From Chitinophagales bacterium (lineage in GTDB: Bacteria; Bacteroidota; Bacteroidia; Chitinophagales; Saprospiraceae), in contig JAAFJY010000003.1 of the NCBI GenBank assembly GCA_013299105.1, positions 186,001 through 250,000 on the forward strand: a stretch of DNA of 64,000 nucleotides, written 5' to 3'. Each line of letters begins with the position of its first letter. Position 1 is the first letter of the stretch. Under the pieces are notes generated by a model. The model was given only the letters and a program-made list of their open reading frames with translations, was not told the DNA's origin and ran no database searches. The translations under genes and the position numbers were made by a program. Of this stretch, positions 4,863-45,825 are shown in pieces.

Positions 4863-4867
4863 TGAGA

Positions 4868-4904: not shown

Positions 4905-4906
4905 GA

Positions 4907-4940: not shown

Positions 4941-5063
4941 GAGTTTATAGTAAAGTCTGCAAGCCTTTGACTATTGGAAATACGATTTAGAGCTACAGAG
5001 AAAATAACTTGTAAGAATTGGTGCTTTGCCCCGCTTTCACGCAGGGCATGACGCGGCGCGGGA

Positions 5064-21331: not shown

Positions 21332-21388
21332 TTTTGTCTGGATCAGAATATTTTGTCTGGATCAGAATATTTTGTCTGGATCAGAATT
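21332..21388 (+). repeat. Three tandem copies of a 19-base unit
   Basis: TTTTGTCTGGATCAGAATA repeats at 21332, 21351 and 21370 without gaps. Inverted copies lie at 22770-22804, so the units bracket about 1.4 kb containing the GxxExxY gene. The third unit is also the start of repeat module E. Confidence 0.85.
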
Positions 21389-22674: not shown

Positions 22675-22804
22675 TGGTAGTCCGCGAAGCGGGCCAATTC
22701 TTAAATTCTTTCAAATTCTACTTTGGTCAACGTCTCGCAAGAAATTCTGAAATTCTGAAATTTCTGAAAATTCTGATCCAGACAAAATTCTGATCCAGAC
22801 AAAA
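22675..22804 (-). repeat. Repeat module E, copy 4 (inverted), with two 19-base units
   Basis: Reads on the minus strand as two tandem TTTTGTCTGGATCAGAAT units, AGAATTTC repeats, AGACGTTGACC and GGCCCGCTTCGCGG. It abuts the acyl-CoA dehydrogenase gene. Confidence 0.7.
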
Positions 22805-24520: not shown

Positions 24521-27500
24521 ATGATAAGAATTGTACGTTCCAGCCATCCAAGGATCGGCACCCCAAACCCATTCACTGCGCTGCCTTCACGAGGTAGGCT
24601 TCGACCTTTTTTGGCAACAGCGCTGTTTGCAATGTTTATGCTTACAGGGCTGCAAGCTCAAATTACGAGTGCAACCCTTAATGTTCCAGGCCCTTATTGT
24701 CCTGGTCAAGCTGTAGGTGTAAATTATGGTGGCACTGGCACGGGCATTTCACTTTTTTTGAGCAATACAAATAGCCCTGGAACCTTTGCAAATCCAGCAA
24801 TAGCTACAGCACCTAATCCGGGGGGGCTTATCTTAGGGGATTTGCCATTCGATTTAGCCCCAGGGACGTACAATTTTCGAGTGACTAATTCAAGTGTGCC
24901 GGCGGGTGGTGCAAACACAGGGAATTTCACTGTATCTACACGTACGCTTACCGGTAACTATTCCTCAATATCGAGCAGAGTATGTGTAGGAGACCAAATT
25001 ACGGTTCCATTTTCTACGAATTGTGCATTTCCTGCGAATAGCCAGTTTACGCTGGAGTTGAGCCAAGCCAATGGAAATTTTCCAGGTACGGTGATCAGTG
25101 GTGCTCCGGTCATTGGTACGGGCACTGGTAGTATTTCAGGGACGATTCCCAATGTGACTGAAAGCCTTAATTATAGGGTAAGGGTAGTGTCCAACCAAAG
25201 CCAGAATACCATTGGGCAAACGATATCGGCTGCTTCAAACACCTTTGAGGTAAAAAAAGGAACTACGGTCACGAATCCAGGAGGTCCTTTCTGCCAAGGT
25301 CAACAAAATATCACGGTCAGCTTCACGCCTAGTCAGACGACAACTTATCTGGTCACCAATTTCTTTCGCTTGGAGTTGAGTGATGCATCGGGAAGTTTTG
25401 CTACACCGACTGTATTGGATGAAATTCCCCTTCAAGGCACTGGAGTAGGTAGTGGTTCATTTACTTTTGGTTTGCCTTTCAATATCCCATTTGGTACTGG
25501 ATACCGGGTGCGGGTGGTTTCTACAAATCCGATTGATGATTGTCCACCAATTCCTTCGGCTCCTTTTACGATCAATGGTCCTGGTCCTCTAACGGTCAAT
25601 GACGTGACTGCTTGCTTAGGGGACATGGCTACTTTTACGGCCAATTTTGGCTCTCCAATGAACAGTACCACTTTTCAATGGTACAAAATGTGTGTTGGAC
25701 CGTTTGTGAACACCACTGCTGGCCTTACCACGGGGAACAATCCTGCGGTCACCAACGAGGTAGTAGCCAGTGGTTCCAATGTATATGTAGCGACTGGCGC
25801 TGGTTTGAGCATCTCTACCAATAGCGGAGGGACTTACACTTTGGTTCCCATTGCAGGTAACTTGGCGGTATATGATGTAGCTGTTAGTGGCACTAATGTT
25901 TATGCAGCTACGAATAACGGGATTTATTGGTCGACTACCGGAGGTGCTCCGGGATCTTTCACCAATCAAGTGCTTTCTGGTACATTTATCAATTCTCTTT
26001 TTGTATCTGGTACTAACGTGTTCGCTGGTACCTCGAATGGGGTGTACGTGTTTACAAACACAATGAGCCAAATATTCCATTTCACAACCGCAAATGGTTT
26101 GGGGAGTAACCAGGTCAATGCAGTTTATGTTGAAGGACCTAGACTTTATGCCGCCACTGGCAATGGGCTTTCAATTAATTTTAACTACCCGCTAGGAATT
26201 TTTTCTCCATTTTTCAATAGGACCTTCCTCAATAGTTCCTTAGCTGCCGACAATGTCAGGTCGGTGTTTGTTGCGGGCAACGTAGTTTATGCAGGTACCA
26301 CCAATGGCCTCTCTGTTTCGACCAATTTCGGGTTTACCTTTGCTGACAATTACTTGCCTGGGGAATCCATCAATGATCTTTGGGTAAGCAATGGATTAAT
26401 TTATGTGGCTACCAATAATGGGTTGAAAATAGGGACCAATGGCTCCAGTATCTTTACAGACTATAAAATTGAAGATGGGCTTGGCCAAAACGCAGTAAAT
26501 GGGGTATTTGTGGCACCAGGAAATGTGGTCTATGCAGCCACTGGCAATGGTATCTCGAAGGGAACTGCCTCTTTAACCCCCATACCAGGAGCCAATGGTA
26601 GCAGTTACTCTTTTACCGTTGCGTACCCTGATGCTTTGTGCAGGTACCAGGTAAGGGCTCAAAACGCCAATTGTCCAGCTGCTTCAAATTTTGGCGAGTT
26701 GCCTGTTTTTGTCCCTCAAATTTCCTTGGCGAGTGCTGGCCCTGCATCGACTTGTGCCAGTGCTGATGGTTTTATTGAAATACAGGGCCTTACTCCCAAT
26801 GCACCATACAAGATCAGCTATACTGGTGGTGGCAGCGGCTCTCCTTCTAATGGCGCTCAATTCACTGCGGATGTGAATGGGCGTTTCCGGATTAAGTTTT
26901 TGCCAGGGGGGACATATACTGTTCAAGTATTGAGCAATTTCTCACCCAGTTGCCCCTCCAACACGCTCACGGTGGTAGTGGCGCGCCCAGCGGAACCAGG
27001 ATTGCCAAGCTTTGTATCGGCACCGGCGGTGTGTGTAGGGCAGCCTTTAAAGATTACCATGGGTGCTTTGGGTGTCAATGAAGAGTATCGTTGGTTCACT
27101 AACGCAGCCACGACTACCACCTCCAACCCGATGAGTTCGGGGCCCGTTTATATGCCGATGCCAGCCCCGCTCAATAGTGGCAGCTATTGGGTACGAATTA
27201 GGAACACCTTGACCCAATGCGTTGGCGACTCCTTAAAGGTCGACTACATCATGAACACGGGCTTGAGCATCACCACTACCAAAACCAATCCCACTACTCC
27301 TGGAGGCAATGATGGAAGCATCACCATCTCAGGGTTGGCTCCCAATGCCAATTATACCCTCAACTATGGAGGCTTGGTAGGTACACCCGCTGCGGGACCA
27401 GTTGTTTCTGATGCCAATGGTAAGATTGTCATTACAGGTTTCACGGCAGGGGACGTGACGGGTATTTTTATTGTAGATCCTACCAAAAACTGCCCTTCCA

Positions 27501-30500
27501 ATGGGTACAATTGCACCTTGTTCGATCCTACCAATGACCCTGCGCTGGATAAACTCCAAACGGTAGTTTGCGAAATACCCGGCGTGATGGGGGGATACTT
27601 ACAACAAATTGACCCCACTGCTTGCGCTGATGGCAGCACCCACATTTCTGAGGGTCTCGGTGCGATTGCAGTAGGCCGGATTCGGCAAAGTGTCAGCTTG
27701 CCAGTAGGCAGTAATGACAAAGTGGAAATGCGGGGTTATGTGAAATTTGACCTGAGCAGAATACCCACTAACGCAACTATTACCAAAGTAGAATACCGCC
27801 CCAAGGCGATTCAAGGAGGATTCAGATCAATCTGCGATATTGATCAGGACAACATGATCATCAGCGCTACCGGAGATATTCAATTTGACATTACCCAGGT
27901 ACAAGATGGCAACTACAGCCCCTACACCAATTTCAATCCTGCGGTATTCCAAGACTTGTATGAAACCAAGTACAACGACTTTGTGATTGCCGCTGACGCG
28001 ACGGGAGCCATTACCAACTTGGGCCAAGTAGCAGTTGAAGATGTACAAAGAAGATTGAAAGGCGACAAGTTGTTCCAAATTGGCTTGCACCTTTCTGGCA
28101 ATGATTTTGACCTGCCAGTTTTCCAATTTCATGGCATTGTTTTTGCACCTTCAGCAGAACACGAGTTGTGCATCTCCTACACCCTGCGCGACTACGGTGA
28201 TTTACCAGAACCTAAATACGCTACCGATATTTTTGGCGGTTTGATCGGCCCTAGTCACGTGATCGACTCCATCGACTTGGATCCAACTTCTACTGGTATC
28301 AATCGCCAGCCAGCGATGTTCATTGGTGCGACACCTCCTGATCCTGAACTCAATGGGCAACCTAGTGCCTTGGCAGATGGTGACAATACGAATGGTGTAA
28401 ATGATGAAAACATTAACCGTGCTTGGTTTACCAATGCAGCTACTGCCGATTCGCTGATCGCAGGCAATACCATTGACCTTAAATTCAATGTGACCAACAA
28501 CTTGGCCGCCGCTTCCAATGTGGTAGCATTCATTGACTGGGATGGCGATGGCGTTTTTGAGAACGATACTGAGCGATTCACCACAACGGTAGGTCCTGGT
28601 ACTTCTCCGGTGACCTTCAATTTGACTATACCTACTTATGCAACGGGTAATGTGGGGGTTAGAATCCGCATGTCCTCAGCAGGGATTACCGACGCTTACG
28701 GCCCAATGCCCGATGGGGAAGTTGAAGATTACTTATTACAAGGTATTCGCGGCTTTGATTATGCCGACTTACCCGACGCGGAGGCTGCTGGTACTGCTGG
28801 TGCAACGGCTACCGGCAATTATGAGACTATTTACGCAGCCAATGGTAGCCGCGGCCCACGTCACTTGATCAATGCTGATTTGAAAATTGGCAACCTGATC
28901 GACGCTGAAGGCAATGGCCAACCACAGATCAATGCTTTTGGCGACGACATCAACGGCATCGACGACGAAGACGGAGTGATTCCTCCTGACTCGGTGGTTC
29001 GTGGCGCACCAGCCCGCTTCAAGGTGTTTGTGACCAACAAGACCAATGCTCCAGCTTACCTGGTAGGTTTTGTGGATTGGAACGACGATGGCAGCTTTGA
29101 AGACGGCTCGCCCAACCAAAAATCAGCAACCATCACGATTCCAGCGGGCGTGAGTGGCTATTACAATGTTGATTTTGTCGTGCCTACCTCACCAAGCCCA
29201 CTTCCTGATCGGGTGGCTTCTCGTTTCCGTTTGAGCAACGAAAATACCGCTGTTCGCTTCTCCACGGGCCCGGCCCAAGGGGTACCAACCGACATCCAAG
29301 GGGAAGTAGAAGACCTTTGGGTCAGCATTGTTGGGTATGACTGGGCCGACTTGTACGAACCCCGCTACATCACCGACAAAGCAGGTGGCCAGCCTGGTCC
29401 AAGCCACAAAATCAGGGCCATTGATCACGACAATAACCCTAATTCGCCCAATGTGTACGCCATGTACATCGGTGCTACACCTCCTGATCCTGAAACAGAC
29501 GCCTTCCCTGGCAAGCCAGCAAGTGGCGATGACCTCAATGGGGTAGACGATGAAGACTTAGCGGAAAGCAACTTCCTTCATCCAACTACTTTAACGTCTT
29601 ACCCGCTGATTTCGTCAACTCCAACGGTGTTCCGGGTTCCGGTTACCAACAACTCGAATCGCAGTGCAACCCTCTGGGCTTTCATCGACTGGAATGGAGA
29701 TGGTTCTTTCACTGGACCTGGTGAAACCAACTTTAAAACGGTGAGTGCTGGCTTTATTGGCAATATGGATTTCAGTTTGTTGGTGCCCAATATCGGTAAG
29801 CCTGATTCGATTGGCGTAAGGGTGCGCCTGACCTCAGGTGCGATCCTCGACGCCTACGGCCAGGCTCCTGATGGGGAAGTGGAAGATTTTATGGTGGAAT
29901 TGCGCGGCGTTGACTTCGGCGACTTGCCCGATGTAAGTGCCAACGTAGCCCCCAATGACTTCCAAACCACCAGCGCTAACAACGGCCCACGCCACGGTGT
30001 ACAAGTGAAGCCTTTGACTTTCATGGGCAAACTGATCGACACCGAAACCGACGGTAAGCCCAATGGCGAAGCTGACGGCGATGACAAAGACATACAACCT
30101 GACGATGAAGATGGCATCATTTTCCTTGGCCCATTGGTGCCAGGTAGGACTGCTCAATTGTCGTTTACGGGTACCAATAACAACACCAATCCAGCTACCC
30201 TGCACATGTGGGCCGACTGGAATGGAGATGGCATTCTGGAATATGTAAGTGGTACCACGATTGCGGCAATTACTACGGTAAATGCCCAGATCATCACTTT
30301 CAATGTGCCTTCAAACGCCACTTTCTTGGGGGGCAAGGTGTATTTCCGGTTCCGGTTCACCACTGATCCAGTGTTCAATGCCAACCCACAACCTACTGGT
30401 GCAGCTTGGGACGGTGAAGTAGAAGATTACTACAAGCCGATCTTCAAATTAGGCAACCTGGTGTGGGAAGACCGCAATCACAACGGCCTGCAAGACGCCG

Positions 30501-33500
30501 AGGAAATCAACTTGGGCATCAAAAACGTTCGCATCGTCTTGCGTTATGGTGGGGTGAACACCATCACAGGCGCTTTTGACTCTGTTACGCAAAAAACTGC
30601 TACTAATCCTCGGACCATCATCGTGGATGGTGGCAAGGACCTGATCCGCGACTCGATCCTGCAAACTTTCACCGACGACAAGGGCTTGTATTGCTTCACG
30701 GGCTTGATCGAAGGTGCATACCAAGTCATTGCTGTGGACACTTTCGGCCTGACGCCAACCCGTTTTGACTGGATCAAAAATGTAACGGAAGAAGACCTTG
30801 ACAGTGATGGCAAACCACTTAAAAACCCTTGGGATTATGTGAGTGGAGACCGCCGCCAGTCCAAGAGCCAAACCTTTTTGCTCACCGCCGACCGCATTGG
30901 CACCGATGAAGAAGGCATTCTTGACCAGGGTAATCCACAATTGTTGGATCCCAACGCCTTGAATGGATTCCCTGACGAAAGGGTAGAGCAGCGTCTTGAT
31001 TTCGGTTATGTAGGTCTTGACCTCGGCGACTTGGCCGAAAGTGGCAACAATCCTTCGGTAACCAACTTTATCACTACTGAAAATGGTACCAAACCAGAAG
31101 GTCCCAAGCACATCGTGACGCCTGACCTGCGCCTCGGCAAATGCCAGGACGTAGAATGGCAAGGCCAACCCGATCAAGATGCTGGTGCTGAGTTCAAACC
31201 CGGTCCTGATGCTGGCGGAGATGACCCGATTGCTAACTTCAGCAATTACCCGAATTTCCCTTACGATCCTTCACAAGGCCGCCGCTGGCCCTTCCACGAT
31301 GCAGCCAATGCTTGTGGAGACGACGAAGACGGTATTCGCTTCCTCACTCCAATGGTACCAGGCTACAACGCTTTGATGTCGGTGAAATACCACGCCAAAT
31401 TGAACCTGGATGGTCCTGATGCTTACCTGCATACTTGGATCGACTGGAACGGCGATGGCAATTTTGACGATGGTGCGGGCAACTACGATCCAGACGAACA
31501 CATCCGGTTCAGCCTGCTCGATGGCAAACCAGCCATTCTGGAGCCCAATACCAAGGCTTTAGAGTTGGAGATGAACTACTTGGTCAATGCCAATGACTCG
31601 ATCGTTTTGACCTTCAAGGTGCCTGCCAATGTGAAATACAACAATGGCAACATCCTGTCGCGTTTCCGCATCAGCTTTGACCCACGCATCGGGCCTAACG
31701 GCATCTTGGCCCCCAACCTCAACTTCCCCGACCCACAGCCAGGAGCAGTTTCTTCGCAGGTGCCTGGCGGGGTGATTCCTTATGGCGAGGTTGAAGACTA
31801 CTTCATTTCCCTGGCCAAAGTGGGCAACACGGTATTTGAAGACCGCGACTACGATGGATTCCAAGATGTACTCGAACCAGGCATCGCCAATGTGCCTATC
31901 AAATTACAATTTGCTGGTGCCGACGGTATCCTGAACAATGGCGATCCTTACGAATTTACTTATCACGATACCACCGATGCCAATGGACGTTATTTCTTCT
32001 GCGGCTTGTTGGGCAATGTAGACCCTTCTGGCATTCCCAATCCGGTTTACCAACTGATCGTTTCTGATCCAGCGGGCATGACCGCAACCTTCAACAACCC
32101 AGATCCATCTGACGACGCTTGCATTGACGACAATAGCAATGGTGACGACCTGTTGATCGACAACCGCATCACTACTGACACCTTTACCATCACCAATCCG
32201 ATGATGTTGTGTCTGGATGAAAACGCGCCACGCAACGACGTAGGTGGTTTGGTTGCAGGCAACAACCTGCCGCCAAGTGCCGATGCCTTGAACAACTTCC
32301 CGGATAACCAGTACGACGAAACGCGTGACTTTGGTTACACGGGCTTTGATTATGGTGATTTACCAATCAATTCAGTTTTGAAGGGCTCAAAATACTTGAC
32401 CCTGCGCGACTCAATGAATGCGCAGTTCAACAACCTGTTTGGGGCCAGACATGCCATCCAGCCTCGCCTGTTCTTGGGCCGTGGGGTGGACGGTGAGCTC
32501 AATGGCAAACCCGACGCTGATGCAGGTAGCAAAGCCGGAGGCGACGACGACGACCAGGGTGCCTTCAAAAAAGGCTTGACCGCCGACGACGAAACGGGTG
32601 TACGCCTGCTTTCGCCACTGATTCCTGGTGAGTATGCCTATATCAAGGTGAACTACACCTCTCAGGATACGGCTGCTGGCGGATATGTCAATCGTACCGC
32701 ATACCTTGATGCCTTCATTGACTGGAACGGCGATGGTGTATTGGACCCAACTACGGATGAGAAAGTGTTGTTTACGCACCAGGCCTTTTCGACTGGCTCG
32801 CCCTTCTCGACCAACAACGTACCTGATATTGCCGATACCCGCACGCCCGTGTTGCCTGCAACTGGTGCCAATGGGGTGGACAGTACGATCTTGGCCTTCT
32901 TGGTGCCTACCAATGCTGTTTACGACACTGGTACGGTATTCATGCGCTACCGATTGGGCTGGACCAACTACTCAGCGACTTTCCCAACGGCTTTCCCGAA
33001 CGGTTTGGAACCTGACAACAACAAGTTTCACATGAAGACTTCGCCCTACGTGAAGTCGTTCGAGAATAACCTTCCTCTGGGGGCTCCAGTTACCTTCAAC
33101 GATGTAGCTGGCGACCTCGGACGCTATCCTTACCCACAAGGTGAGGTGGAAGATTACGCCATTCCAGTTGCCAAAATTGGCAACCTGGCTTGGTTCGACC
33201 ACGATGTATTTGGCGATCAGGATGCCAACGAAGATGTAGTCGACTCGCTGCACTTGGTATTGATCTGGGGTGGGGTGAATGGTGCTACTGGGGCATTCGA
33301 CACCGTAGGTTACCAGACCAACCTTTCCTCTTTGGGTGCAGTGACCGACATTTTGTACAACCGCAGCATCGCGCCTCCAGGTGTAGGTACTTACACCCCT
33401 GGTGCCCTAGTAAAAACTGGTATTTCGCCTGCACAAGACAGCGGCATGTACTCCTTCCGTGGCTTGATTCCTGGTATTTACTACGTATTGCCGCTAAAAT

Positions 33501-36500: not shown

Positions 36501-39238
36501 AGGACAAAACGCCAGTTGAGTGCATTGCTCCAAGTGCAGTTCGGATATTCTGTACCGACAAAAACCTGGGTACACTCGACAGTAAAGTCCAGTCTGCTCG
36601 TGCATTCGGTGATGTAGTCATCGTGCGTGGTGCAACTTGTGCAGCTGTTGATACCACTTACACGACGGTTAAGAAACTGAAGTGTGGAGCAGGTACCATT
36701 GAGCGCATCTGGACTTTGACCAAGAAAACTGCTCATGGCCCAATCGTAAGTACTTGCAAGCAAATCATAACGGTATTGCCACTGCGCGAGTACGACATCC
36801 GCTTCCCTAAAGACGTGGACACCCGCGATTGCAGCAAGCCATTGATCGATACGCTAAAAGTGGATGAGCACAGTTGCGACATCTTGGCGATCAACATCAC
36901 CGACAAGCGCTACGATAAGTCGGCTGATGAATGCTACAAGATCTTCCGCACTTACACCGTGATCGACTGGTGTGCATACGACGAGCGCTGCGGCGACCCA
37001 ATGGCTGCCAATGTAGCCTATGTGGTTGATCGCAAGTACAGCGACAATGGCTTGAGACCAGTCTTCGTATTGGTTCGTGATGAGGACCGCAACCAACGCG
37101 AAGAGTTCTACCTCTCTGCTGACGATGTGGTTCACAAAGGTGCACTGCTGAGTGATGGTATTGTTGAACCAAAGAACAACAACGACGAAAGCTTCACACC
37201 AAACTTCTGCGAAATTGCCTTCAGTGGCAGCGCCGAAGGTTTGCCAACTGGAGCTTACATTCACTCCTTTATGTACACCCAGGTGATCAAGGTTTACGAC
37301 GACATTCAACCTGTGGTGAGCGTAGTGCCTGATACAACTTGCATCCGCGATGGAGGCGATTGCTTGGCCAACCCTCAGATCATCGTGAACGCCAAGGACA
37401 ATTGCACCGACGATGTGACGATGGAAACCAACCTCTTGATGGTGGCTCCATTCCAGACCTTAGATCGGACGCAAATGATCCTTTACAGCACCACAAGTTG
37501 GGAGGTCAAAAAATTGGACAAAGGCAAGTTCGAGGTGAACATCAAAGACTTGCCGATGGGTAAGCACGACTTGATCGTGGTGGTTCGCGATGAGTGCGGC
37601 AACTTGAGCGCACCCACTCGCATCCCACTCATCATCGAAGACTGCAAAGGACCTGCACCGATCTGTATCAATGGCCTTAGCATTGAGTTGATGCCCAACG
37701 GCAGTGGCGATGGTTCTGCACTGGTATGGGCTACTGACTTCGTGGCTTCCAAAATCTTTGACTGCAACGGTCAAGGGCCGGAAACCCAAGGCAATGGTAA
37801 ATTGGTAACCAAATACTCAATCAACCGCGTTGGCAGCCCAGTATCGGCTACCCAAACCAGCTTGGCCTTCAACTGCAAAGATGCAGGCAAAATCATCCAG
37901 ATTGAGTTGCACGCTTGGGATGAGCTGGGTAACCATGACTTCTGCGTAACCTTCATCCAAGTACAGGACAACAACAAAGCTTGTGGCGGAACTGGTGGCA
38001 CAACCGAAACGGGTCAAATCGCAGGTTTGATCCTGACCGATGACGCCGAGCCAGTGCAAAGCGTAGCAGTTGAAGTAGGTGGCGCATCTACCCAGAAAGC
38101 CAATACAGGCAACAACGGTGGATTCAATATCGACAACTTGAAGAAAGGCGGTGACTATACAGTGAGTGCACAACACGACAAAGACCACGGCAACGGGGTG
38201 TCGACCTTCGACTTGGTGTTGATTCAGAAGCACATTCTGAATGTACAGCCGATCACCAGCCCATACCGCTTAATCGCTGCTGATGTCAACAACTCGAAGA
38301 CCATCACCACCCTCGATTTGATCCAGATTCGCAAGTTAATCTTGCAAATCGACGATAAGTTCAAGAGTGTACCTAGCTGGAAGTTCATTGATGCCACTTA
38401 CAAATTCCCGGATGCAACCAATCCGTTTGCCCAGGATTACCCTGAAGTGATCAACATCAATAACCTGACCGCACTGGCCAAGGCCGACTTCGTAGCCGTG
38501 AAAATGGGCGACGTTAACGGCAATGCTGCTACCAGTCCACAAGCCGTCAAGTCAGAAATTCGTACCAATCGCGCATTCTTGATCGAAGCCAAGGACGAAC
38601 TGATGAGAGCCAATCAGCAGTACGAGATTCCAGTTCGTGCCCGCGATTTGCAGCAGATCCAGGGTTACCAGTTTACGCTGAAATACGACCTGGCTGCGGT
38701 AGAATTGCTGAGTATGGATTACGGATTGTCCAAAACTGAAAACTTTGGTGTATTCGCAGATAAAGGTTTGATCACCAGCAGTTGGAACACCAGTACAACG
38801 GCCAAGCACGATCCAAACGCATACCTCTTTACCCTTGTATTCAAAGCCAAAACGACGGCAAAGGTAAGCGATGTGTTGAAGATCAACAGCCAACTCACTG
38901 CTGCGGAAGCCTACGATGTGCAAAACCAGACCATCGGAGTGAAGCTGACCTTTGACGCTGATCGTTTGAGTACCAATGCGCTTTTGCACCAAAATCAACC
39001 TAACCCATTCAGCGATGAAACCCTGATCGGCTTCTACCTGCCAAAGGCCGCCAAAGGTACTTTGACCATTCGCGACGCCAAGGGAAGTTTGGTTTACAGC
39101 GTAAAAGCACAGTACGTGAAAGGCGAAAACACGGTCCTGATTAAGCGCAATGAGCTGCGAGACAGCGGAGTTTTCTACTACACTTTTGAGACTGAAGATT
39201 TTGTTGACACCAAGAAAATGGTGTTGCTGACCCGATAA
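24521..39238 (+). CDS. Giant T9SS-secreted surface protein (4,905 residues) with propeller, GEVED, SdrD_B, dockerin- and cohesin-like modules
   Basis: The start at 24521 gives a signal peptide ending at GLQAQ (about residue 47); the frame is open six codons upstream from a TTG. Visible order: Ig/PKD-like modules (to about 385); seven repeats of the form YAATxNGLSxSTN (about 420-684), a predicted seven-bladed propeller inserted into an Ig-like domain; further Ig-like modules; six units ending in GEVED (residues 1399, 1594, 1785, 1965, 2422, 2874) rich in DxNGxDDED and FIDWNGDG motifs; three SdrD_B-like modules (GNLVWEDRNHNGLQD type) after the fourth, fifth and sixth GEVED; about 1,500 residues of cysteine-containing HYR-like modules; a carboxypeptidase-regulatory-like fold; a dockerin-like pair (about 4560-4610); a cohesin-like domain (about 4680-4815); and a T9SS sorting domain with NQPNPFSDET. 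It is probably an adhesin or matrix protein; role is inference. Confidence 0.88.
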   Translation: MIRIVRSSHPRIGTPNPFTALPSRGRLRPFLATALFAMFMLTGLQAQITSATLNVPGPYCPGQAVGVNYGGTGTGISLFLSNTNSPGTFANPAIATAPNPGGLILGDLPFDLAPGTYNFRVTNSSVPAGGANTGNFTVSTRTLTGNYSSISSRVCVGDQITVPFSTNCAFPANSQFTLELSQANGNFPGTVISGAPVIGTGTGSISGTIPNVTESLNYRVRVVSNQSQNTIGQTISAASNTFEVKKGTTVTNPGGPFCQGQQNITVSFTPSQTTTYLVTNFFRLELSDASGSFATPTVLDEIPLQGTGVGSGSFTFGLPFNIPFGTGYRVRVVSTNPIDDCPPIPSAPFTINGPGPLTVNDVTACLGDMATFTANFGSPMNSTTFQWYKMCVGPFVNTTAGLTTGNNPAVTNEVVASGSNVYVATGAGLSISTNSGGTYTLVPIAGNLAVYDVAVSGTNVYAATNNGIYWSTTGGAPGSFTNQVLSGTFINSLFVSGTNVFAGTSNGVYVFTNTMSQIFHFTTANGLGSNQVNAVYVEGPRLYAATGNGLSINFNYPLGIFSPFFNRTFLNSSLAADNVRSVFVAGNVVYAGTTNGLSVSTNFGFTFADNYLPGESINDLWVSNGLIYVATNNGLKIGTNGSSIFTDYKIEDGLGQNAVNGVFVAPGNVVYAATGNGISKGTASLTPIPGANGSSYSFTVAYPDALCRYQVRAQNANCPAASNFGELPVFVPQISLASAGPASTCASADGFIEIQGLTPNAPYKISYTGGGSGSPSNGAQFTADVNGRFRIKFLPGGTYTVQVLSNFSPSCPSNTLTVVVARPAEPGLPSFVSAPAVCVGQPLKITMGALGVNEEYRWFTNAATTTTSNPMSSGPVYMPMPAPLNSGSYWVRIRNTLTQCVGDSLKVDYIMNTGLSITTTKTNPTTPGGNDGSITISGLAPNANYTLNYGGLVGTPAAGPVVSDANGKIVITGFTAGDVTGIFIVDPTKNCPSNGYNCTLFDPTNDPALDKLQTVVCEIPGVMGGYLQQIDPTACADGSTHISEGLGAIAVGRIRQSVSLPVGSNDKVEMRGYVKFDLSRIPTNATITKVEYRPKAIQGGFRSICDIDQDNMIISATGDIQFDITQVQDGNYSPYTNFNPAVFQDLYETKYNDFVIAADATGAITNLGQVAVEDVQRRLKGDKLFQIGLHLSGNDFDLPVFQFHGIVFAPSAEHELCISYTLRDYGDLPEPKYATDIFGGLIGPSHVIDSIDLDPTSTGINRQPAMFIGATPPDPELNGQPSALADGDNTNGVNDENINRAWFTNAATADSLIAGNTIDLKFNVTNNLAAASNVVAFIDWDGDGVFENDTERFTTTVGPGTSPVTFNLTIPTYATGNVGVRIRMSSAGITDAYGPMPDGEVEDYLLQGIRGFDYADLPDAEAAGTAGATATGNYETIYAANGSRGPRHLINADLKIGNLIDAEGNGQPQINAFGDDINGIDDEDGVIPPDSVVRGAPARFKVFVTNKTNAPAYLVGFVDWNDDGSFEDGSPNQKSATITIPAGVSGYYNVDFVVPTSPSPLPDRVASRFRLSNENTAVRFSTGPAQGVPTDIQGEVEDLWVSIVGYDWADLYEPRYITDKAGGQPGPSHKIRAIDHDNNPNSPNVYAMYIGATPPDPETDAFPGKPASGDDLNGVDDEDLAESNFLHPTTLTSYPLISSTPTVFRVPVTNNSNRSATLWAFIDWNGDGSFTGPGETNFKTVSAGFIGNMDFSLLVPNIGKPDSIGVRVRLTSGAILDAYGQAPDGEVEDFMVELRGVDFGDLPDVSANVAPNDFQTTSANNGPRHGVQVKPLTFMGKLIDTETDGKPNGEADGDDKDIQPDDEDGIIFLGPLVPGRTAQLSFTGTNNNTNPATLHMWADWNGDGILEYVSGTTIAAITTVNAQIITFNVPSNATFLGGKVYFRFRFTTDPVFNANPQPTGAAWDGEVEDYYKPIFKLGNLVWEDRNHNGLQDAEEINLGIKNVRIVLRYGGVNTITGAFDSVTQKTATNPRTIIVDGGKDLIRDSILQTFTDDKGLYCFTGLIEGAYQVIAVDTFGLTPTRFDWIKNVTEEDLDSDGKPLKNPWDYVSGDRRQSKSQTFLLTADRIGTDEEGILDQGNPQLLDPNALNGFPDERVEQRLDFGYVGLDLGDLAESGNNPSVTNFITTENGTKPEGPKHIVTPDLRLGKCQDVEWQGQPDQDAGAEFKPGPDAGGDDPIANFSNYPNFPYDPSQGRRWPFHDAANACGDDEDGIRFLTPMVPGYNALMSVKYHAKLNLDGPDAYLHTWIDWNGDGNFDDGAGNYDPDEHIRFSLLDGKPAILEPNTKALELEMNYLVNANDSIVLTFKVPANVKYNNGNILSRFRISFDPRIGPNGILAPNLNFPDPQPGAVSSQVPGGVIPYGEVEDYFISLAKVGNTVFEDRDYDGFQDVLEPGIANVPIKLQFAGADGILNNGDPYEFTYHDTTDANGRYFFCGLLGNVDPSGIPNPVYQLIVSDPAGMTATFNNPDPSDDACIDDNSNGDDLLIDNRITTDTFTITNPMMLCLDENAPRNDVGGLVAGNNLPPSADALNNFPDNQYDETRDFGYTGFDYGDLPINSVLKGSKYLTLRDSMNAQFNNLFGARHAIQPRLFLGRGVDGELNGKPDADAGSKAGGDDDDQGAFKKGLTADDETGVRLLSPLIPGEYAYIKVNYTSQDTAAGGYVNRTAYLDAFIDWNGDGVLDPTTDEKVLFTHQAFSTGSPFSTNNVPDIADTRTPVLPATGANGVDSTILAFLVPTNAVYDTGTVFMRYRLGWTNYSATFPTAFPNGLEPDNNKFHMKTSPYVKSFENNLPLGAPVTFNDVAGDLGRYPYPQGEVEDYAIPVAKIGNLAWFDHDVFGDQDANEDVVDSLHLVLIWGGVNGATGAFDTVGYQTNLSSLGAVTDILYNRSIAPPGVGTYTPGALVKTGISPAQDSGMYSFRGLIPGIYYVLPLKYFATDSATFVNAWPKHRVVTLQDNPGVDDNNDSDGITTGVSGPRRGPGAFVKIADGNNRQPEVCVNDRPLAENGKQDAQDNANPFTPVFFPDNQWDKSVDIGWVDEPNVEASMDIVGVNFPTSQICGNFNVITHLCIKNPQEVPLDSLQMFFNLLNAYGPALYTASKPIVTVVDSAFVTNPKDVKIKKSSLVNYNTSVNAKAKDLLVVNPNYNGTTDTRLLIPTSESANFILRGDSILCLQIEFEIDPTKTANYPWMLSALVSGRAVGFNKQTGLKRPLTDFRYFHPRFGKTIVVYDSTDEFDDPMPMASLAYPLGGDNILFEGMVADRGLKGDYQPPYVSPNVTGRDKYIDEDDKAIMNDSCWIKTKWNSGYQEFQIGLDENCEAIINADKLVPNYIPVCGFDKYPMGSYYRVIIQDKHTEETLWASVDRVPFDASKYLDRKLIYKVRSVANHCNVIWGPIIFVDKLAPVVTCPPTTSRKLNSKNRIVGTHTFICSDIDSVLNVTRSWADSTYAYYTGIATATDACSTPRLDNVKDEIVFISDCALSSTNGFIYAQIRRTFTFADAMGNKGICHQLINFYRPRIVLPVCKILVPNNKAKGDTLIALIDLVGKKYELPQAVPHYVNGAGNKVYITGQDLCGFAFNYKDEVTFVTGEEGGCGKKIIRHWSIFDWCYGKGENYPNYVILPDSNNTCYTDSKWEGGRYSWKQTIVVGDDEKPIIQALDIDNDGKVGHYSGEPQADPKVATSTYDPDDVLTFSTGPMDCTGSFIFNRSSFKVIEQSDWCYDIKVFERVAIKDLDERPTGKFEMKLGPTVTVKGDCAKGFQVTGVPMVGDWFVQVRVYDACYSSDTAMIPIRILDKIVPVMKCDDKFNITLDNLGNGHIAAKDLDEGSWDNCKLKWVKVRRPVTDACQESLKTIIQYVDANKNGKIDSLDYVDLNKNRKADEGEFFEIAKGTKQLMTPLMDTVPFFCCDGGSLMVELWGEDKFGNRNFCWHTTQIEDKTPVECIAPSAVRIFCTDKNLGTLDSKVQSARAFGDVVIVRGATCAAVDTTYTTVKKLKCGAGTIERIWTLTKKTAHGPIVSTCKQIITVLPLREYDIRFPKDVDTRDCSKPLIDTLKVDEHSCDILAINITDKRYDKSADECYKIFRTYTVIDWCAYDERCGDPMAANVAYVVDRKYSDNGLRPVFVLVRDEDRNQREEFYLSADDVVHKGALLSDGIVEPKNNNDESFTPNFCEIAFSGSAEGLPTGAYIHSFMYTQVIKVYDDIQPVVSVVPDTTCIRDGGDCLANPQIIVNAKDNCTDDVTMETNLLMVAPFQTLDRTQMILYSTTSWEVKKLDKGKFEVNIKDLPMGKHDLIVVVRDECGNLSAPTRIPLIIEDCKGPAPICINGLSIELMPNGSGDGSALVWATDFVASKIFDCNGQGPETQGNGKLVTKYSINRVGSPVSATQTSLAFNCKDAGKIIQIELHAWDELGNHDFCVTFIQVQDNNKACGGTGGTTETGQIAGLILTDDAEPVQSVAVEVGGASTQKANTGNNGGFNIDNLKKGGDYTVSAQHDKDHGNGVSTFDLVLIQKHILNVQPITSPYRLIAADVNNSKTITTLDLIQIRKLILQIDDKFKSVPSWKFIDATYKFPDATNPFAQDYPEVININNLTALAKADFVAVKMGDVNGNAATSPQAVKSEIRTNRAFLIEAKDELMRANQQYEIPVRARDLQQIQGYQFTLKYDLAAVELLSMDYGLSKTENFGVFADKGLITSSWNTSTTAKHDPNAYLFTLVFKAKTTAKVSDVLKINSQLTAAEAYDVQNQTIGVKLTFDADRLSTNALLHQNQPNPFSDETLIGFYLPKAAKGTLTIRDAKGSLVYSVKAQYVKGENTVLIKRNELRDSGVFYYTFETEDFVDTKKMVLLTR
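25676..26610 (+). other. Seven-repeat beta-propeller insert within an Ig-like domain of the giant protein
   Basis: FQWYK (near 25676) is the usual first half of an Ig-like module, and PIPGANGSSYSFTV (near 26580) its usual continuation. Between them are seven units with cores YVATGAGLSIS, YAATNNGIYWS, FAGTSNGVYVF, YAATGNGLSIN, YAGTTNGLSVS, YVATNNGLKIG and YAATGNGISKG. This matches the two-component-regulator-type propeller repeat. Confidence 0.7.
28200..33166 (+). repeat. GEVED / SdrD_B repeat array of the giant protein
   Basis: Six GEVED-terminated units each start with a DYGDLPE/FDYADLPD-type motif followed by GPRHxI and carry DGDDxNGxDDED loops that look calcium-binding. The last three are each followed by an SdrD_B-like module (starting near 30446, 31808 and 33172). 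Units three-letter-similar but not identical at DNA level, so they are old duplications. Confidence 0.8.
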
Positions 39239-39250
39239 ACATGAAGTTCT

Positions 39251-39294
39251 CGTTCCGGCTGTTTTGATGATTCAAGGTGGCCGGAACGGGTTTT
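39251..39294 (+). terminator. Hairpin between the giant gene and the next gene
   Basis: A 9-bp perfect stem (CGTTCCGGC, 39251-39259, with GCCGGAACG, 39280-39288) is followed by GGTTTTC. The T-run is short, so it may attenuate rather than stop transcription into the three downstream genes. Confidence 0.5.
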
Positions 39295-39310
39295 CACAAA
39301 AACACAGATC

Positions 39311-39820
39311 ATGAAACATTCTACCTTTCTGTTGCTTGTGGCCTTCATGGCTTTGTTGGGCTCTAGCTTGGCAATTACGACTCAAGCCCAAAACCAAGTG
39401 CTCGAGGTCATCGGCACTGGTGGCGGAAAATTTACCACGCCCAAGTTCAGCATGGATTGGACCCTGGGTGAAACCGCCATTTCGTCTTGGTCTAATTCCG
39501 AGAAAGTGATAACGGTTGGTTTTCAGCAACCACGCTTGGAAGTGATTTTGGAGAAACCCAGAAGTGTTGCGCCCAGCGTAACCATTGCACCCAACCCCGT
39601 GCAAAGTATTCTGAACATTCAATTGGCTTTTGAAAGCAAAACCCAATTGAAAGCTCAATTGCTGGATGTACAAGGCAAGATTCTGGCCAAAAACATCCAA
39701 CTTAATCAGCGAAACACCGAATTGAATGTAGAAAACTTGCCATCAGGCTTGTATTTCCTGCACATCTATACTGCCTTGGGTGAACCTTTGGAAGTATTCA
39801 AAGTGGTGAAAAACAACTAA
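39311..39820 (+). CDS. Small secreted T9SS sorting-domain protein
   Basis: A 169-residue protein consisting of a signal peptide (residues 1-27, ending TTQAQ), a short beta-rich region (VLEVIGTGGGKFTTPKFSMDWTLGETAI...KVITVGFQQP) and a T9SS type A sorting domain of about 80 residues starting at VTIAPNPVQSILNIQL and ending GLYFLHIYTALGEPLEVFKVVKN. The middle GxxxWTLGE...TxGFQQP segment is common in short Bacteroidetes proteins that precede a sorting domain. It lies 72 bases after the giant gene and 35 bases before the next gene, so probably in one operon. Its function may be as a companion or carrier of the surface complex (inference). Confidence 0.85.
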   Translation: MKHSTFLLLVAFMALLGSSLAITTQAQNQVLEVIGTGGGKFTTPKFSMDWTLGETAISSWSNSEKVITVGFQQPRLEVILEKPRSVAPSVTIAPNPVQSILNIQLAFESKTQLKAQLLDVQGKILAKNIQLNQRNTELNVENLPSGLYFLHIYTALGEPLEVFKVVKNN

Positions 39821-39855
39821 GCAGCTCGATTCTTTCAATGCATAATCCTTGCAAC

Positions 39856-41667
39856 ATGAAAAAAATATTACTCTTGTTGGTCGTTTTGGTAACCCTCTTG
39901 GGCCAACAATTGAACGCTCAGGATGCGGTAGCCCAAGGCATGAACTACCAGGCCGTAGCCCGCGATGCTACCAATAAAATTATTGCAAATGCCATCATCG
40001 CCTTAAAAGTGTCATTGGCTTCTAAAGAAAATCCAGGCGGATTTTACACCGAAACCCACCGGGTAGTGACCGACCAAAATGGTTTGTTCAAAATCGTCAT
40101 CGGTGAGGGCAAAGAAGCAAATGGAGCTTTGAAAGATGTACCCTGGGCAAAGGAGCAAGTATGGCTCAACCTGGCCATCGATAGCAAAGCTGGCAATGAT
40201 TTCAAACAAGTGAGTTCGGCTAAATTGCTATCTGTACCTTATGCTTACCACGCCATGACCGCTTCGGAATTGGTGGGCGGTGGCGACGTGCCAGGAGCCA
40301 ATTCGGCAGAAGAGAAAAACCAGTCGATTTACTGGACCACAGGCGGCAACACCGCAACCCGCCCAGAAAATCACTTCCTCGGTACGCGTGACAACCAAGA
40401 TTTGGTAATCAAAACCAACAACGTGGTCCGCGCAATTGAGACCAAAACGGGCCAGTTGCAGATAAAAAGTGGCGTAGACGGCCCTGATGATGACATCAAA
40501 GCGTACCCTGTAACTGTCGAAGGCAGCAAGCAAGGCATTTGGATTCAGGTGAACGGCAGCCGTTCCACTGCGAACAACTTCTTGAATTTTGCCGATGCGG
40601 AAAAAACCTGGGGTACAGTAGAAGGCCAAACCCTCACTGAGCTCCAGAATAGTTCTGAATACAAAAACCAAGTAGCTCTTTTTGAATTGCAGTTGGTATC
40701 TCTAGCCGCCTCAGGCGTAGGCTTGGGGATTCAGATCAGCGGTTTGTTTGGCACTGGTTTTGGGGCAGCTGCAGCAGTGGGTGCCATCGCCACCTTGGCG
40801 GCCATTGTTGCCGAAGCCATTGCATTGGGCATTGAATATGACAATTGGGTAGAGAATACCGTCAATTCGGTTGGGGTGTCTTATACTTCTGGTTCTGGCG
40901 ACTATGCCGAGTGGTTGCGTCGTGCCCCCAAAGTAAGGGATTTGACTTATGGAGAAATAGTTGGGGTCAAAGGCGGCCAAGTATCCTTGAATACCCAAGG
41001 TGCCGACCACTTGATGGTCGTTTCGATGCGCCCAATCGTTTTGGGCAACGCACCCCAGAAAGCAGAAGAGCATTTGTTTGAAAAAGTGGCCTTCATGGGG
41101 CAAGTACCTGTACGCGTGGCTGGACCAGTCAAAATTGGCGATTACATTCTGCCTTCCGGCAACAAAGATGGATTTGGAGTAGCAGTACATCCAGAAGACA
41201 TGAAAATAGGCGATTACGCCAATATTGTAGGGGTAGCTTGGCAAGATGCCAAAGACCAAACCCTTAACATCGTCAACGTAGCAGTGGGCATCAATTCCAA
41301 CGACTTGAGCAAAAAAGTAGACGAATTGAACGCCAAAGTAGACCGCATCATGAACTACCTCGAAGGCAAAGGAAGCTTGGATGGCAGTGGCACGCTAGCA
41401 GCTACAACTGGTGAAAAACCGACTACTACCTTCCAAAAAACCTTGACCGATGAGGAATTCGATGCCTTGGTGGACAAAAATGAGACCATTTACAAGTACA
41501 TTTTCAGCAGCGTACAAGCTGAACTGAAAAAACGTGGTCACCAAAGCAGTCCGCAATTGGATGCCTTCTTTGAGAATCCAACGGAAACCATGAAGACACT
41601 GCGCCGCAATCCAGCTTACCTCACCCAATGGGCAATGGTGGATCAGAAGATCAAAGCCAAGCGTTAA
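39856..41667 (+). CDS. Secreted protein with phage-tail-like C-terminal module, paralog 1
   Basis: A 603-residue protein; the start at 39856 gives a clean signal peptide (ends LNAQ). Residues about 28-140 are the MNYQAVARDATNKIIAN...FYTETHRVVTDQNGLFKIVIGEG domain common in Bacteroidetes secreted and fibre-like proteins. About 155-260 contains SIYWTTGGNTATRPENHFLGT. Then comes a hydrophobic Gly/Ala-rich stretch (about 283-330), and a module with GVSYTSGSGDYAEWL, GEIVGVKGG, HLMVVSMRPIVLGN, GQVPVRVAGPVKIGDYILPSG that resembles the Peptidase_G2 autoproteolytic domain of phage tail proteins. The C-terminal 120 residues are helical. No T9SS tail. It is 13 bases from its paralog, same operon. Confidence 0.75.
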   Translation: MKKILLLLVVLVTLLGQQLNAQDAVAQGMNYQAVARDATNKIIANAIIALKVSLASKENPGGFYTETHRVVTDQNGLFKIVIGEGKEANGALKDVPWAKEQVWLNLAIDSKAGNDFKQVSSAKLLSVPYAYHAMTASELVGGGDVPGANSAEEKNQSIYWTTGGNTATRPENHFLGTRDNQDLVIKTNNVVRAIETKTGQLQIKSGVDGPDDDIKAYPVTVEGSKQGIWIQVNGSRSTANNFLNFADAEKTWGTVEGQTLTELQNSSEYKNQVALFELQLVSLAASGVGLGIQISGLFGTGFGAAAAVGAIATLAAIVAEAIALGIEYDNWVENTVNSVGVSYTSGSGDYAEWLRRAPKVRDLTYGEIVGVKGGQVSLNTQGADHLMVVSMRPIVLGNAPQKAEEHLFEKVAFMGQVPVRVAGPVKIGDYILPSGNKDGFGVAVHPEDMKIGDYANIVGVAWQDAKDQTLNIVNVAVGINSNDLSKKVDELNAKVDRIMNYLEGKGSLDGSGTLAATTGEKPTTTFQKTLTDEEFDALVDKNETIYKYIFSSVQAELKKRGHQSSPQLDAFFENPTETMKTLRRNPAYLTQWAMVDQKIKAKR

Positions 41668-41679
41668 AATCCAGCAGCG

Positions 41680-43581
41680 ATGAAAAAACTATTGAGCTTA
41701 CTCATCCTGCTTGTTTGGAGCAGTACGGCCATTTGGGCCCAAAAAGCCTTGCCGAGAGGGATCAACTACCAGGCTATTATGCGGGATCCCAGCGGTAAAT
41801 TGCTGGTCCAGCAACCTGTGGCATTGCGGTTTTCATTTGCCAAGAACGAAGGCGAAACCCAGGCTTTTTACACCGAAGTGCACCAGGTAACCACCGATGC
41901 CCTTGGTTTGATCAACCTGGTGATCGGCGAAGGAAAGGTAATGAGCGGAGATTTTGATAAAATTCCCTGGTCGCAAGGGTCGATCTGGTTTGGGGTCGAA
42001 GCGGATATTCAAGGCAACCAAGATTTCACGGTCCTGGGACGCTCACCCTTGTTGAGTGCGCCTTATGCCTTTCATGCCAATACCGCTTCTTCGATTGAAG
42101 GATCACCTAACTCGGCCAACGATCAGGATCAAAAGAACCAATCCATTTATTGGGTAACAGGAGGGAATACCGCCACCAGACCTGAGAATCACTTTACAGG
42201 TACGCGTGATAACCAAAACTTTGTACTGAAAACCAACCTCAGAACCAGGGCAGTTTTCACCAAAGAAGGCCAATTGCAAATCAAAAGTGGCGTGGACGGC
42301 ACCGATGATAGTCGCGATGCTTACCCTGTGCTCATCGAAGGTAGCAAACAAGGCATTTGGATTACCATTAGTGGTAATCGTAGCGAGTCTAACAATTTTG
42401 TCACGTTTGCAGATGCCGTAAAGACCTGGGGAACGATTGAAGGGCAAACTTTGGCCGAACTTCAAAACAGCTCTGAATACAAAAACCAAGTTGCTCTTTT
42501 TGAATTGGCCCTCGTATCAACTATCGCCCAAGGCGTTAGTTTTGCCATTACCGCCGCAGGTTATGTTGCAGCTGCCATTGCGGCTGGGGCGAGTATTATC
42601 TTTTCTTGGCAAGCTCCAGGATGGATTTTGGCAGGCGTAGGGGTAATTGCTGAAGGAGTAGGGGTGGCCACTGAAATCGCCTCCCTCATCATTTCCTACG
42701 ACGACTGGGTAGAAAACACGGTCAACGCAGTCGGGGTGTCTTATACTTCAGGTTCTGGTGACTACGCAGAGTGGCTCCCACGTGCGGTCAAAGAACGCGA
42801 CCTGATTTTTGGAGAGATTGTTGGCGTGAAAGGCGGCTTGGTTTCTCTGAATACCAGCAATGCCGATCACTTCATGGTGGTGTCAAAAATGCCAGCCGTG
42901 TTGGGCAATGCACCACAAGAAAAAGACAAGGCAGCTTTTGAAAAAATCGCTTTCATGGGCCAAGTACCCGTAAAAGTGCTCGGCAAGGTGGACGTAGGTG
43001 ACTACATCATCCCTTCGGGCAACAACGACGGCATGGGCGTAGCGGTAAATCCCAAAAAACTTGCTGCTGCCGACTTCTCCAAAATTGTTGGGGTAGCCTG
43101 GGAGGCGACCAAAGACGATGCCCCCGTATTGCATTACGTCAACGTGGCGGTAGGACTCAAGAAAAATGACCTGGCACCAAAAGTCGAAGAGTTGTCGAAT
43201 AAGGTCGATAACATCATGGCTTACTTGGAAGGCAAAGGCCCTTTGCATCCTGAAAATGCGGAAGCTACAGCAAACATGGCGAGTACTAACTCGACTCAGT
43301 CGCCATTGAACGCCAATACCACTACAGTTCCTGATCTGGATAAAATCTTTAGCGACCAGGAATTCGACCGTATGCTCGACGACAATGCCGATCAAATTGG
43401 GCAAATTTTCCAAGCAACGATCAAAGAATTAGAAAGACGGAATTTTGACTTGGAAAAACACCCTGAGATCAAATCCTTCTTGCACAATCCGATTCCAGGG
43501 ATCAAAGCAATGCGCCGCAACCCTACACTTGCCTCGAAATGGGGGCAGATTGATGCCAACTTTATACGAAATCGCAAGTGA
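41680..43581 (+). CDS. Secreted protein with phage-tail-like C-terminal module, paralog 2
   Basis: A 633-residue paralog of the preceding protein with the same layout: signal peptide (ends IWAQ), GINYQAIMRDPSGKLLVQQ domain, SIYWVTGGNTATRPENHFTGT block, hydrophobic stretch (about 285-340, longer here with two predicted segments), GVSYTSGSGDYAEWLP...GEIVGVKGG...HFMVVSKMPAVLGN and GQVPVKVLGKVDVGDYIIPSG, then a helical end closing with FLHNPIPGIKAMRRNP, matching FFENPTETMKTLRRNP in paralog 1. The hydrophobic segment and the linker before the tail are the most divergent parts. A bidirectional terminator follows. Function unknown; the domain similarity to tail fibres is an inference by eye. Confidence 0.75.
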   Translation: MKKLLSLLILLVWSSTAIWAQKALPRGINYQAIMRDPSGKLLVQQPVALRFSFAKNEGETQAFYTEVHQVTTDALGLINLVIGEGKVMSGDFDKIPWSQGSIWFGVEADIQGNQDFTVLGRSPLLSAPYAFHANTASSIEGSPNSANDQDQKNQSIYWVTGGNTATRPENHFTGTRDNQNFVLKTNLRTRAVFTKEGQLQIKSGVDGTDDSRDAYPVLIEGSKQGIWITISGNRSESNNFVTFADAVKTWGTIEGQTLAELQNSSEYKNQVALFELALVSTIAQGVSFAITAAGYVAAAIAAGASIIFSWQAPGWILAGVGVIAEGVGVATEIASLIISYDDWVENTVNAVGVSYTSGSGDYAEWLPRAVKERDLIFGEIVGVKGGLVSLNTSNADHFMVVSKMPAVLGNAPQEKDKAAFEKIAFMGQVPVKVLGKVDVGDYIIPSGNNDGMGVAVNPKKLAAADFSKIVGVAWEATKDDAPVLHYVNVAVGLKKNDLAPKVEELSNKVDNIMAYLEGKGPLHPENAEATANMASTNSTQSPLNANTTTVPDLDKIFSDQEFDRMLDDNADQIGQIFQATIKELERRNFDLEKHPEIKSFLHNPIPGIKAMRRNPTLASKWGQIDANFIRNRK

Positions 43582-43601: not shown

Positions 43602-43638
43602 AAAAAAGGCCGATGTGTAAAAAACGTCGGCCTTTTTT
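43602..43638. terminator. Bidirectional terminator between convergent genes
   Basis: A 12-bp stem (AAAAAAGGCCGA, 43602-43613, with TCGGCCTTTTTT, 43627-43638) carries A/T runs on both sides, so it can end the surface-protein operon on the plus strand and the kinase gene on the minus strand. Confidence 0.85.
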
Positions 43639-43644
43639 AATGGC

Positions 43645-45620: not shown

Positions 45621-45783
45621 ATAGTGTGATTAGCATTTGGAAGACGGTTTATGCATTCAGCAAGGCTATAGGAATTTAAGAAAACTAATTTTCATCTACT
45701 TTGAAGGTGTACTGAGAATTTACCGCTTGAAAAAAAATGCTATGAATCTCTTGCACATTAATACAGCGTCTCCGAAATTTTAA

Positions 45784-45825
45784 CCACTAACCACTAACCA
45801 CTAACCACTAACCACTAACCACTAA
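45784..45825 (+). repeat. Six tandem CCACTAA heptamers
   Basis: Six exact copies of CCACTAA run without interruption into the stop codon of the glycerate kinase gene (45822-45824, on the minus strand). Such arrays are prone to slippage and could change the protein's last codons or mRNA 3' end. Confidence 0.9.

Follow-up and report, generated by a model that had tools for sequence, protein, structure and literature searches.

Introduction

The closest described relatives of the genes considered here come from a predatory bacterium and from phages. The mosaic adhesive trimer (MAT) fibres of Bdellovibrio are placed by their authors on the predator surface, where, in the available excerpts of that study, the N-terminal domain presumably binds a surface element that awaits identification (PMC10769870). 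In gp12 of phage phi29, which has a self-cleaving chaperone, the C-terminal residue of the mature protein, gp12*, is 691 (PMC6542822, excerpt). Proteins exported by the type IX secretion system (T9SS) supply a third parallel; those of type A are fixed to anionic lipopolysaccharide after export (PMC9143113, excerpt). We analysed a stretch of 64,000 nucleotides, called the window below, from a Chitinophagales bacterium (GenBank assembly GCA_013299105.1, contig JAAFJY010000003.1, positions 186,001 to 250,000; coordinates are those of the window). It contains a four-gene cassette: a giant T9SS protein, a 169-residue T9SS protein with a domain that we call SD, and two tandem paralogs that are probable fibre proteins.

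The original prediction, made from the DNA alone, saw in these genes a surface assembly in which the paralogs, jointly with the giant protein, would process, tether or insert something. Our comparisons place the core partnership elsewhere, between the SD protein and the fibre. This fibre-plus-dock module is real and conserved, and as far as we have searched it is undescribed, although it is made of known kinds of parts. What is new is the SD domain, its tie to the fibre N-terminal domain (N-domain), and a hydrophobic hairpin ahead of the cleavage site.

Results

Layout and conservation of the cassette

All four open reading frames (ORFs) lie on the forward strand. The giant protein P0001 (24521..39238; 4,905 residues) has six GEVED and three SdrD_B stretches and a T9SS tail. 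It is followed by the SD protein P0002 (39311..39820), with a signal peptide, the SD domain at about 39383-39574 and a T9SS tail, then by fibre protein 1, or P0003 (39838..41667; 609 residues, likely start 39856), and by fibre protein 2, or P0004 (41680..43581; 633 residues), which has the same domain plan. The frames, their sizes and their common strand agree with the original prediction. The intergenic gaps measure 72, 17 and 12 bases, and the middle one takes its predicted value of 35 if the second ATG, at 39856, starts fibre 1. A canonical intrinsic terminator (43602..43640, forward strand; GC stem followed by six T, z -8.2) lies 3' of fibre 2.

Loss of the gene order in close relatives had been named as one outcome that would refute the prediction, and this outcome did not occur. 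The order giant, small protein, fibre 1, fibre 2 is kept across the fetched stretch in two other species of the genus (genomes G002 and G004). In a third congener (G003) the genes are rearranged and still together on one strand, as small protein, fibre 1, fibre 2, fibre 3, giant; in G001 fibre pairs were seen only on contig fragments. An acyl-CoA dehydrogenase gene and an APH-family gene flank the cassette in the window, whereas nuoA adjoins it in G002, G003 and G004. Because the order is kept although flanking genes differ, the cassette genes evidently stay together, and conservation of their order in congeners makes the cassette more than chance. A 231-residue gene adjoining the cassette in G003 is, by eye, a response regulator.

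The SD protein and its linkage to fibre genes

The SD domain spans about 60 residues with the pattern ...WTLGE...GFHQP..., and no Pfam or NCBIfam model matched it in P0002. The T9SS tail of P0002 clears both the Pfam and the NCBIfam cut-offs (TIGR04183, 38.2 bits against 23), and the top Foldseek match of its AlphaFold2 (AF2) model is a T9SS C-terminal domain, 8qb1. The genome encodes SprA (2204 bits). A T9SS tail was found on 68 of 68 SD proteins, a count that is partly circular in that the profile was built from SD proteins; Pfam confirms the tail of P0002 and of the protein at locus L101. A regular-expression search of the N-terminal 27-33 residues of P0002, P0003 and P0004 found no lipobox. 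By their C-terminal sorting domains P0001 and P0002 belong with the T9SS type A substrates. Since type A proteins are fixed to anionic lipopolysaccharide, the SD protein could serve as a surface anchor by its own tail.

Linkage was measured from several sides. Among 79 GTDB loci with a fibre bearing the Peptidase_G2-like (G2) domain of the window fibres, 64 were testable and 15, with fewer than 700 bases upstream, were left out. An SD gene lies upstream of the fibre within 100 bases in 38 of the 64 and within 1.5 kb on the same strand in 14 more (52/64); all 14 wider-spaced loci have a barrel-like ORF in between. At L088 the SD domain is downstream, inside the giant, which brings the count to 53/64 by either side; 11/64 have none by this search. 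In 60 related genomes, at least 48 of 62 SD matches have a fibre match within 1.5 kb on the same strand, where uniform placement predicts about 0.13, and the fibre is downstream of SD in 44 of the 48 linked cases, among the matches listed. One of the 14 SD matches without a nearby fibre (G005:C110) adjoins an S74 gene. A phylum sample of 99 genomes gave 14 SD matches in 9 genomes, three of them in the genome of the window itself (G000); ten lie within 1.5 kb on the same strand of an N-domain match, two lie about 2.1 kb off, and two have none. Besides the cassette, G000 holds two further SD-fibre pairs (G000:C25, L047:7383-10260; G000:C76:209653-210479), one of which encodes a 773-residue fibre with the same G2-like domain.

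Counts taken from the fibre side weigh against so close a pairing. SD lies within 1.5 kb for only 48 of 133 N-domain rows in the 60 genomes, or for 47 of 107 after tandem rows are joined, both among the matches listed, and in the phylum sample N-domain matches occur in 22 of 99 genomes as against nine for SD. We fetched 19 N-domain loci without an SD match; the choice was limited to N-domain rows at E 1e-7 or below and passed over the two loci whose SD lies about 2.1 kb off. In 15 of the 19 a T9SS-tailed protein of 156-182 residues lies directly upstream on the same strand. Eight of these proteins match an SD profile at E 0.004 or better, and the other seven are SD-like in size, place, tail and, by eye, a shared core. 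No small T9SS neighbour stands upstream at the four remaining loci: at L143 an ORF with SD lies downstream instead, while L128, L144 and L145 have no such neighbour. With 15 of 19 apparently SD-less loci thus supplied, the pairing extends beyond what the SD profile detects, and missed divergent partners largely explain the weak fibre-side counts in the phylum sample, which is the sample that this check covers. Divergent small T9SS proteins with a core resembling ...FSAGE... or ...SVGQ... stand directly 5' of N-domain genes at 15 loci (L127-L142), which belong to further families of the phylum.

The presence of SD follows that of the N-domain more than that of the G2 domain. Of the 64 testable loci, 51 have both N-domain and SD, four the N-domain only, two SD only and seven neither (Fisher p 1.7e-5, kinship ignored). 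The N-only loci comprise one with a divergent T9SS-tailed neighbour (L062), one with a neighbour that is SD-like by eye (L078), one that ends before the site (L080) and one real exception (L079); the two SD-only loci are fragmented fibres. A G2 domain is present at only two of the 19 phylum-sample loci, and several SD genes adjoin N-domain genes whose own ORF also matches S74 (G046:C294, G046:C145, G018:C192, G016:C28 and G017:C258). Such p-values are too small, because the loci are not independent: redundant ones were kept, with L052 and L053 representing the contigs of L033 and L035, L123 identical to L041, and L116 and L118 near-twins.

Further proteins recur near these genes. A barrel-like protein of about 214 residues stands beside SD and fibre in many Flavobacteriaceae (L101:7366-8010 and 33 relatives, 34 ORFs by BLAST). 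It has no Pfam match, its barrel nature is judged by eye, and it was not found in G000, G002, G003 or G004 in a search run without a positive control; it is a possible outer-membrane platform. Where G2-type fibres lack N-domain and SD, a protein of about 330 residues often follows that by eye resembles a phage tail collar (eight ORFs by BLAST, at L074, L081, L084, L096, L102 with two, L110 and L120). One ORF, L067:3554-4312, has an SD domain running into a fibre shaft; it is either a fusion or a misassembly, and no argument here draws on it.

Domains of the fibre proteins

P0003 and P0004 share 52% identity over 616 columns. Both have signal peptides and neither matches the Pfam or NCBIfam T9SS models, and the hydrophobic stretch and GDYAEW...GDYI.PSG module are present, all as first described; a profile of our own found a T9SS tail on none of 118 G2 ORFs, a redundant set. 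In fibre 1, on the forward strand, an N-domain of the MNYQAVARD type, MAT_N-like (NF053851, E 6.5e-9), occupies 39913..40272; a hydrophobic helical hairpin, delimited by AF2 helices, hydropathy and charge counts, occupies 40654..40866 (residues 273-343); and a Peptidase_G2-like domain occupies 40900..41286, with cleavage predicted before D355 (codon 40900). The corresponding cleavage in fibre 2 is predicted before D361 (codon 42760, forward strand). The AF2 model of P0003 (mean pLDDT, the per-residue confidence score, 78.8) has a beta N-domain at 35-129, two long helices at 273-305 and 310-343, the G2-like domain at 347-483 and a helical tail. By these features the paralogs are probably fibre proteins, each with an N-domain, a short shaft, a hydrophobic helical hairpin and a gp12-like chaperone predicted to cleave itself.

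Several searches bear out the early label of these modules as phage-tail-like. P0004 matches a PHROG tail fibre family (E 3.5e-4). A profile of 22 C-terminal domains, searched against PDB, found the chaperone domain of tailspike Dpo31 (E 3.5e-5) and phi29 gp12 (3gqh, E 4.4e-4); the profile was needed, as P0003 alone had no match among PDB sequences. Pfam Peptidase_G2 (PF11962) matches 21 of the 22 domains at E<=0.1 (best 4.9e-8), and the L101 fibre, a member of the family, clears its cut-off with 29.1 bits. With the P0003 model, Foldseek put 3gqh and 3suc on top in PDB (E 7.9e-4) and a preneck appendage protein on top in BFVD (E 2.7e-7). At the other end of the fibres, the Bdello_MAT_N model, NF053851, matches 20 of 23 N-domains at E<=0.01 (best E 1.6e-10). 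The first residue of the 3gqh chain aligns with D355 of fibre 1; as that chain begins there and gp12* ends at the residue cited above, the GDYAEW motif coincides with the site at which gp12 is cleaved. Residues D355, Y356, A357 and E358 are invariant across 63 aligned fibres, in agreement with the cleavage-site motif D-[YF]-A-E.

Other observations count against this assignment. P0003 misses the PF11962 cut-off of 25 bits with 16.9 (21.0 for its domain alone) and P0004 has no match. The fold match of P0003 to gp12 is moderate (TM score 0.54 on 3gqh). The window fibre reaches 35.8 bits with NF053851 against a cut-off of 60, so that homology is supported and membership is not. The AF2 model, that of a monomer only, falls below pLDDT 50 in the shaft (134-169) and in the hairpin turn (300-313). 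The residue before the scissile aspartate is G in 64, A in 28 and E in 2 of 94 fibres and differs from that of gp12, which is serine.

A phage origin of the locus as such was considered and rejected: of 87 pattern matches in IMG/VR, tblastn confirmed none as a relative of the G2 domain, and the scanned flanking genes are of metabolic or housekeeping types. BFVD does hold fold relatives.

The segment ahead of the DYAE motif was analysed in 94 of 101 distinct fibres (three lack an IEG-type motif and four lack DYAE; ORFs whose DYAE falls within the first 140 residues were passed over). An insert of 66-295 residues separates the two motifs in 93 of the 94 bearing both. Mean hydropathy over 19 residues reaches 1.6 in 66 of the 93 inserts, in none of the parts made up of N-domain and shaft, and in two of the parts behind the DYAE motif. 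The lowest-charge windows of 45 residues hold one charge in P0003 and none in P0004, while elsewhere after the signal peptide the minima are at least five and at least four. Were the predicted cleavage before D355 or D361 to occur, the hairpin would end the mature fibre. A serious competing explanation, to which we give somewhat less than even chances, is that the hydrophobic segment forms a buried helix bundle that holds the trimer together and is no tip. The AF2 placement of two long helices inside the fibre suits it, as do the 27 of 93 inserts that stay under the hydropathy threshold; the nearly uncharged windows of both window fibres, and the hydropathy reached by the other 66 inserts and by none of the N-domain and shaft parts, argue for an exposed tip instead.

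The two paralogs share their middle more closely than their ends. Sequences are labelled by a letter for the set and a number for the fibre. In the N-domain tree, fibre 2 of four sets (W2, B2, D2 and H2) groups together, with a support of only 55, and D1 and H1 are joined (91) with W1 beside them. In the tree of the middle segment (146-345) the groups are W1, W2 and B2 (98), C1 to C3 (93), D with H (77) and S with T (98); set B is weak in segment trees, as G001 is possibly a mixed metagenome-assembled genome (5% contamination). Identity between W1 and W2 is 41% in the N-domain, 69% in the shaft and 58% in the hairpin, compared with 63, 60 and 47% between W1 and H1. The middle-segment pattern fits gene conversion, with recent partial duplication as the alternative. 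Concerted evolution of shaft and hairpin, less so of the ends, suggests from these trees that the paralogs may share one trimer or partner.

The giant T9SS protein

Orthologs of the giant in three congeners are 62-65% identical over 4,772-5,067 aligned columns. Its T9SS tail passes TIGR04183 (27.2 against a cut-off of 23) and misses the Pfam cut-off (17.8 against 27). A relationship of the giant with grappling hooks, or with any other protein of solved structure, was rejected, as a phmmer search of PDB sequences gave no match at 0.01. A T9SS neighbour of at least 600 residues is present at no fewer than 25 of 54 loci with SD and fibre, and four more have a cut ORF there. The domains of these large neighbours are unrelated: GEVED and SdrD_B in the window, leucine-rich repeats at L101, PKD and fn3 at L043, and a glycine-rich domain at L040. 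The L088 giant has an SD domain built into it, directly before the T9SS tail. Found at about half of the loci with unrelated domains, yet with SD inside it at L088, the giant looks like a replaceable companion that is part of the system in some lineages.

A strong RNA hairpin lies in the gap between giant and SD gene (39242..39296, forward strand; minimum free energy -30.4 kcal/mol, z -5.3). Comparable hairpins occur in this gap at L031 (z -6.8) and L033 (z -8.1), both without a U-run, for three species in total; in G003, where the giant is last, there is none comparable 5' of SD (z -0.7). That a strong gap hairpin is kept in three species, in two of them without a U-run, suggests separate control of giant and SD rather than simple co-expression.

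This hairpin, together with the presence of a large T9SS neighbour at only about half of the loci and its unrelated domains, would also suit the notion that SD and fibres make up a fibre system of their own, beside which the giant is an unrelated adhesin, a chance neighbour in this genus. We consider that possible and on the whole unlikely, given that the giant of G003 changed side yet stays in the cassette, that the L088 giant itself carries an SD domain, and that a T9SS protein of about 1,800 residues lies directly downstream at many Flavobacteriaceae loci. As to the original prediction, a conserved surface assembly is supported, and a central place of the giant in it is not, in view of the count of loci, the lineage-varying domains and the gap hairpin.

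Other features of the window

Two short tandem arrays at 21332-21387 and 22767-22804 have units that are reverse complements of each other (GTCTGGATCAGAAT and ATTCTGATCCAGAC). A perfect heptamer array, TAACCAC repeated 6.4 times, lies at 45781-45825 and adjoins a glycerate kinase gene. One ORF of 445 residues at 48484-49821 has both GldB-like and DUF2268 matches, and a further ORF of 867 residues with a T9SS-like tail lies at 57225-59828.

Discussion

We favour, at slightly better than even odds, the view of this locus as a surface-fibre cassette. The SD protein would be exported by the T9SS through its own C-terminal signal and stay at the cell surface, where its SD domain may dock the N-domain of the fibres encoded next to it. 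The fibres would enter the periplasm by Sec and trimerise, helped by the gp12-like C-terminal chaperone, which is predicted to release itself by cleavage ahead of the DYAE motif; this would leave the hydrophobic helical hairpin as the tip of the mature fibre. The giant T9SS protein would act as a lineage-specific companion adhesin. Lacking a T9SS tail, the fibres might pass the translocon in a complex with SD or leave the cell in some other way. Of the roles first proposed for the paralogs, processing would survive in the form of the self-cleaving chaperone, and tethering would suit the small T9SS protein more than the giant.

That the fibres are unexposed periplasmic helpers of folding or export for adjoining T9SS cargo, with the G2-like domain a plain chaperone, would suit their Sec-type signal, the missing T9SS tail and the want of a known route over the outer membrane, but is improbable, as the N-domain resembles that of MAT fibres described as surface-located in excerpts of their study (PMC10769870), N-domains elsewhere in the same order are joined, by eye, to S74-like, collagen-like or other ends, and fibres outside the genus have repeat shafts. 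An extension of the surface-fibre cassette is about as speculative: SD might be a T9SS adaptor in trans that carries fibres without a T9SS signal of their own over the outer membrane, autocleavage at the surface might unsheathe the hairpin so that it enters the membrane of a neighbouring cell, and the N-domain with SD might be a general Bacteroidota socket for phage-derived fibres.

Genes for the probable anchor and the fibre are paired again in many Bacteroidota, which offers a possible explanation for the mounting of such fibres on a cell. The surface element for the N-domain, left open in excerpts of the MAT study (PMC10769870), now has a small candidate that is genetically tied to it in many lineages. 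If the fibres do use SD for export, the T9SS would follow a new rule in which one protein lends its signal to another. The position of the hairpin, before a self-cleaving chaperone, suggests a tip that is exposed late and acts on membranes.

Comparison with known systems

The original prediction knew of no described system with this make-up. The cassette now appears less isolated, with MAT fibres and phage tail spikes as related kinds, and our search of the open-access literature found no paper describing the SD domain or SD-fibre pairing. Aureispira is related to the source organism. Its grappling hook protein GhpA (PDB 9flw, 9fls) is likewise a giant surface protein, and was seen here only as a weak Foldseek match of P0002 (E 0.03). 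T9SS type B cargo and its PorP/SprF partner resemble the cassette in that a surface protein is encoded beside a dedicated partner needed for display (PMC12618676, excerpt); in the window, by contrast, the partner bears the T9SS signal and the cargo bears none.

With phi29 gp12 and Peptidase_G2 the fibres share the chaperone fold (3gqh, 3suc) and the DYAE/DFAE motif at the cleavage site. They differ from gp12 in belonging to a bacterial operon, in the stretch of coil and helices, approximately 120 residues long, that follows the domain, in the hairpin before it, and in the P1 residue. The likeness to MAT fibres, as excerpts of PMC10769870 describe them, extends to the signal peptide, the conserved beta-rich N-domain, the shaft and the swappable C-terminal parts, which include a phage-type autocleaving chaperone. 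Other N-domain ORFs of the order have an S74 match in the same ORF (for example at G046:C294, noted above); the window fibres, unlike MAT fibres, have a G2-like chaperone in place of S74, a hydrophobic hairpin, and a partner gene whose product is sorted by the T9SS.

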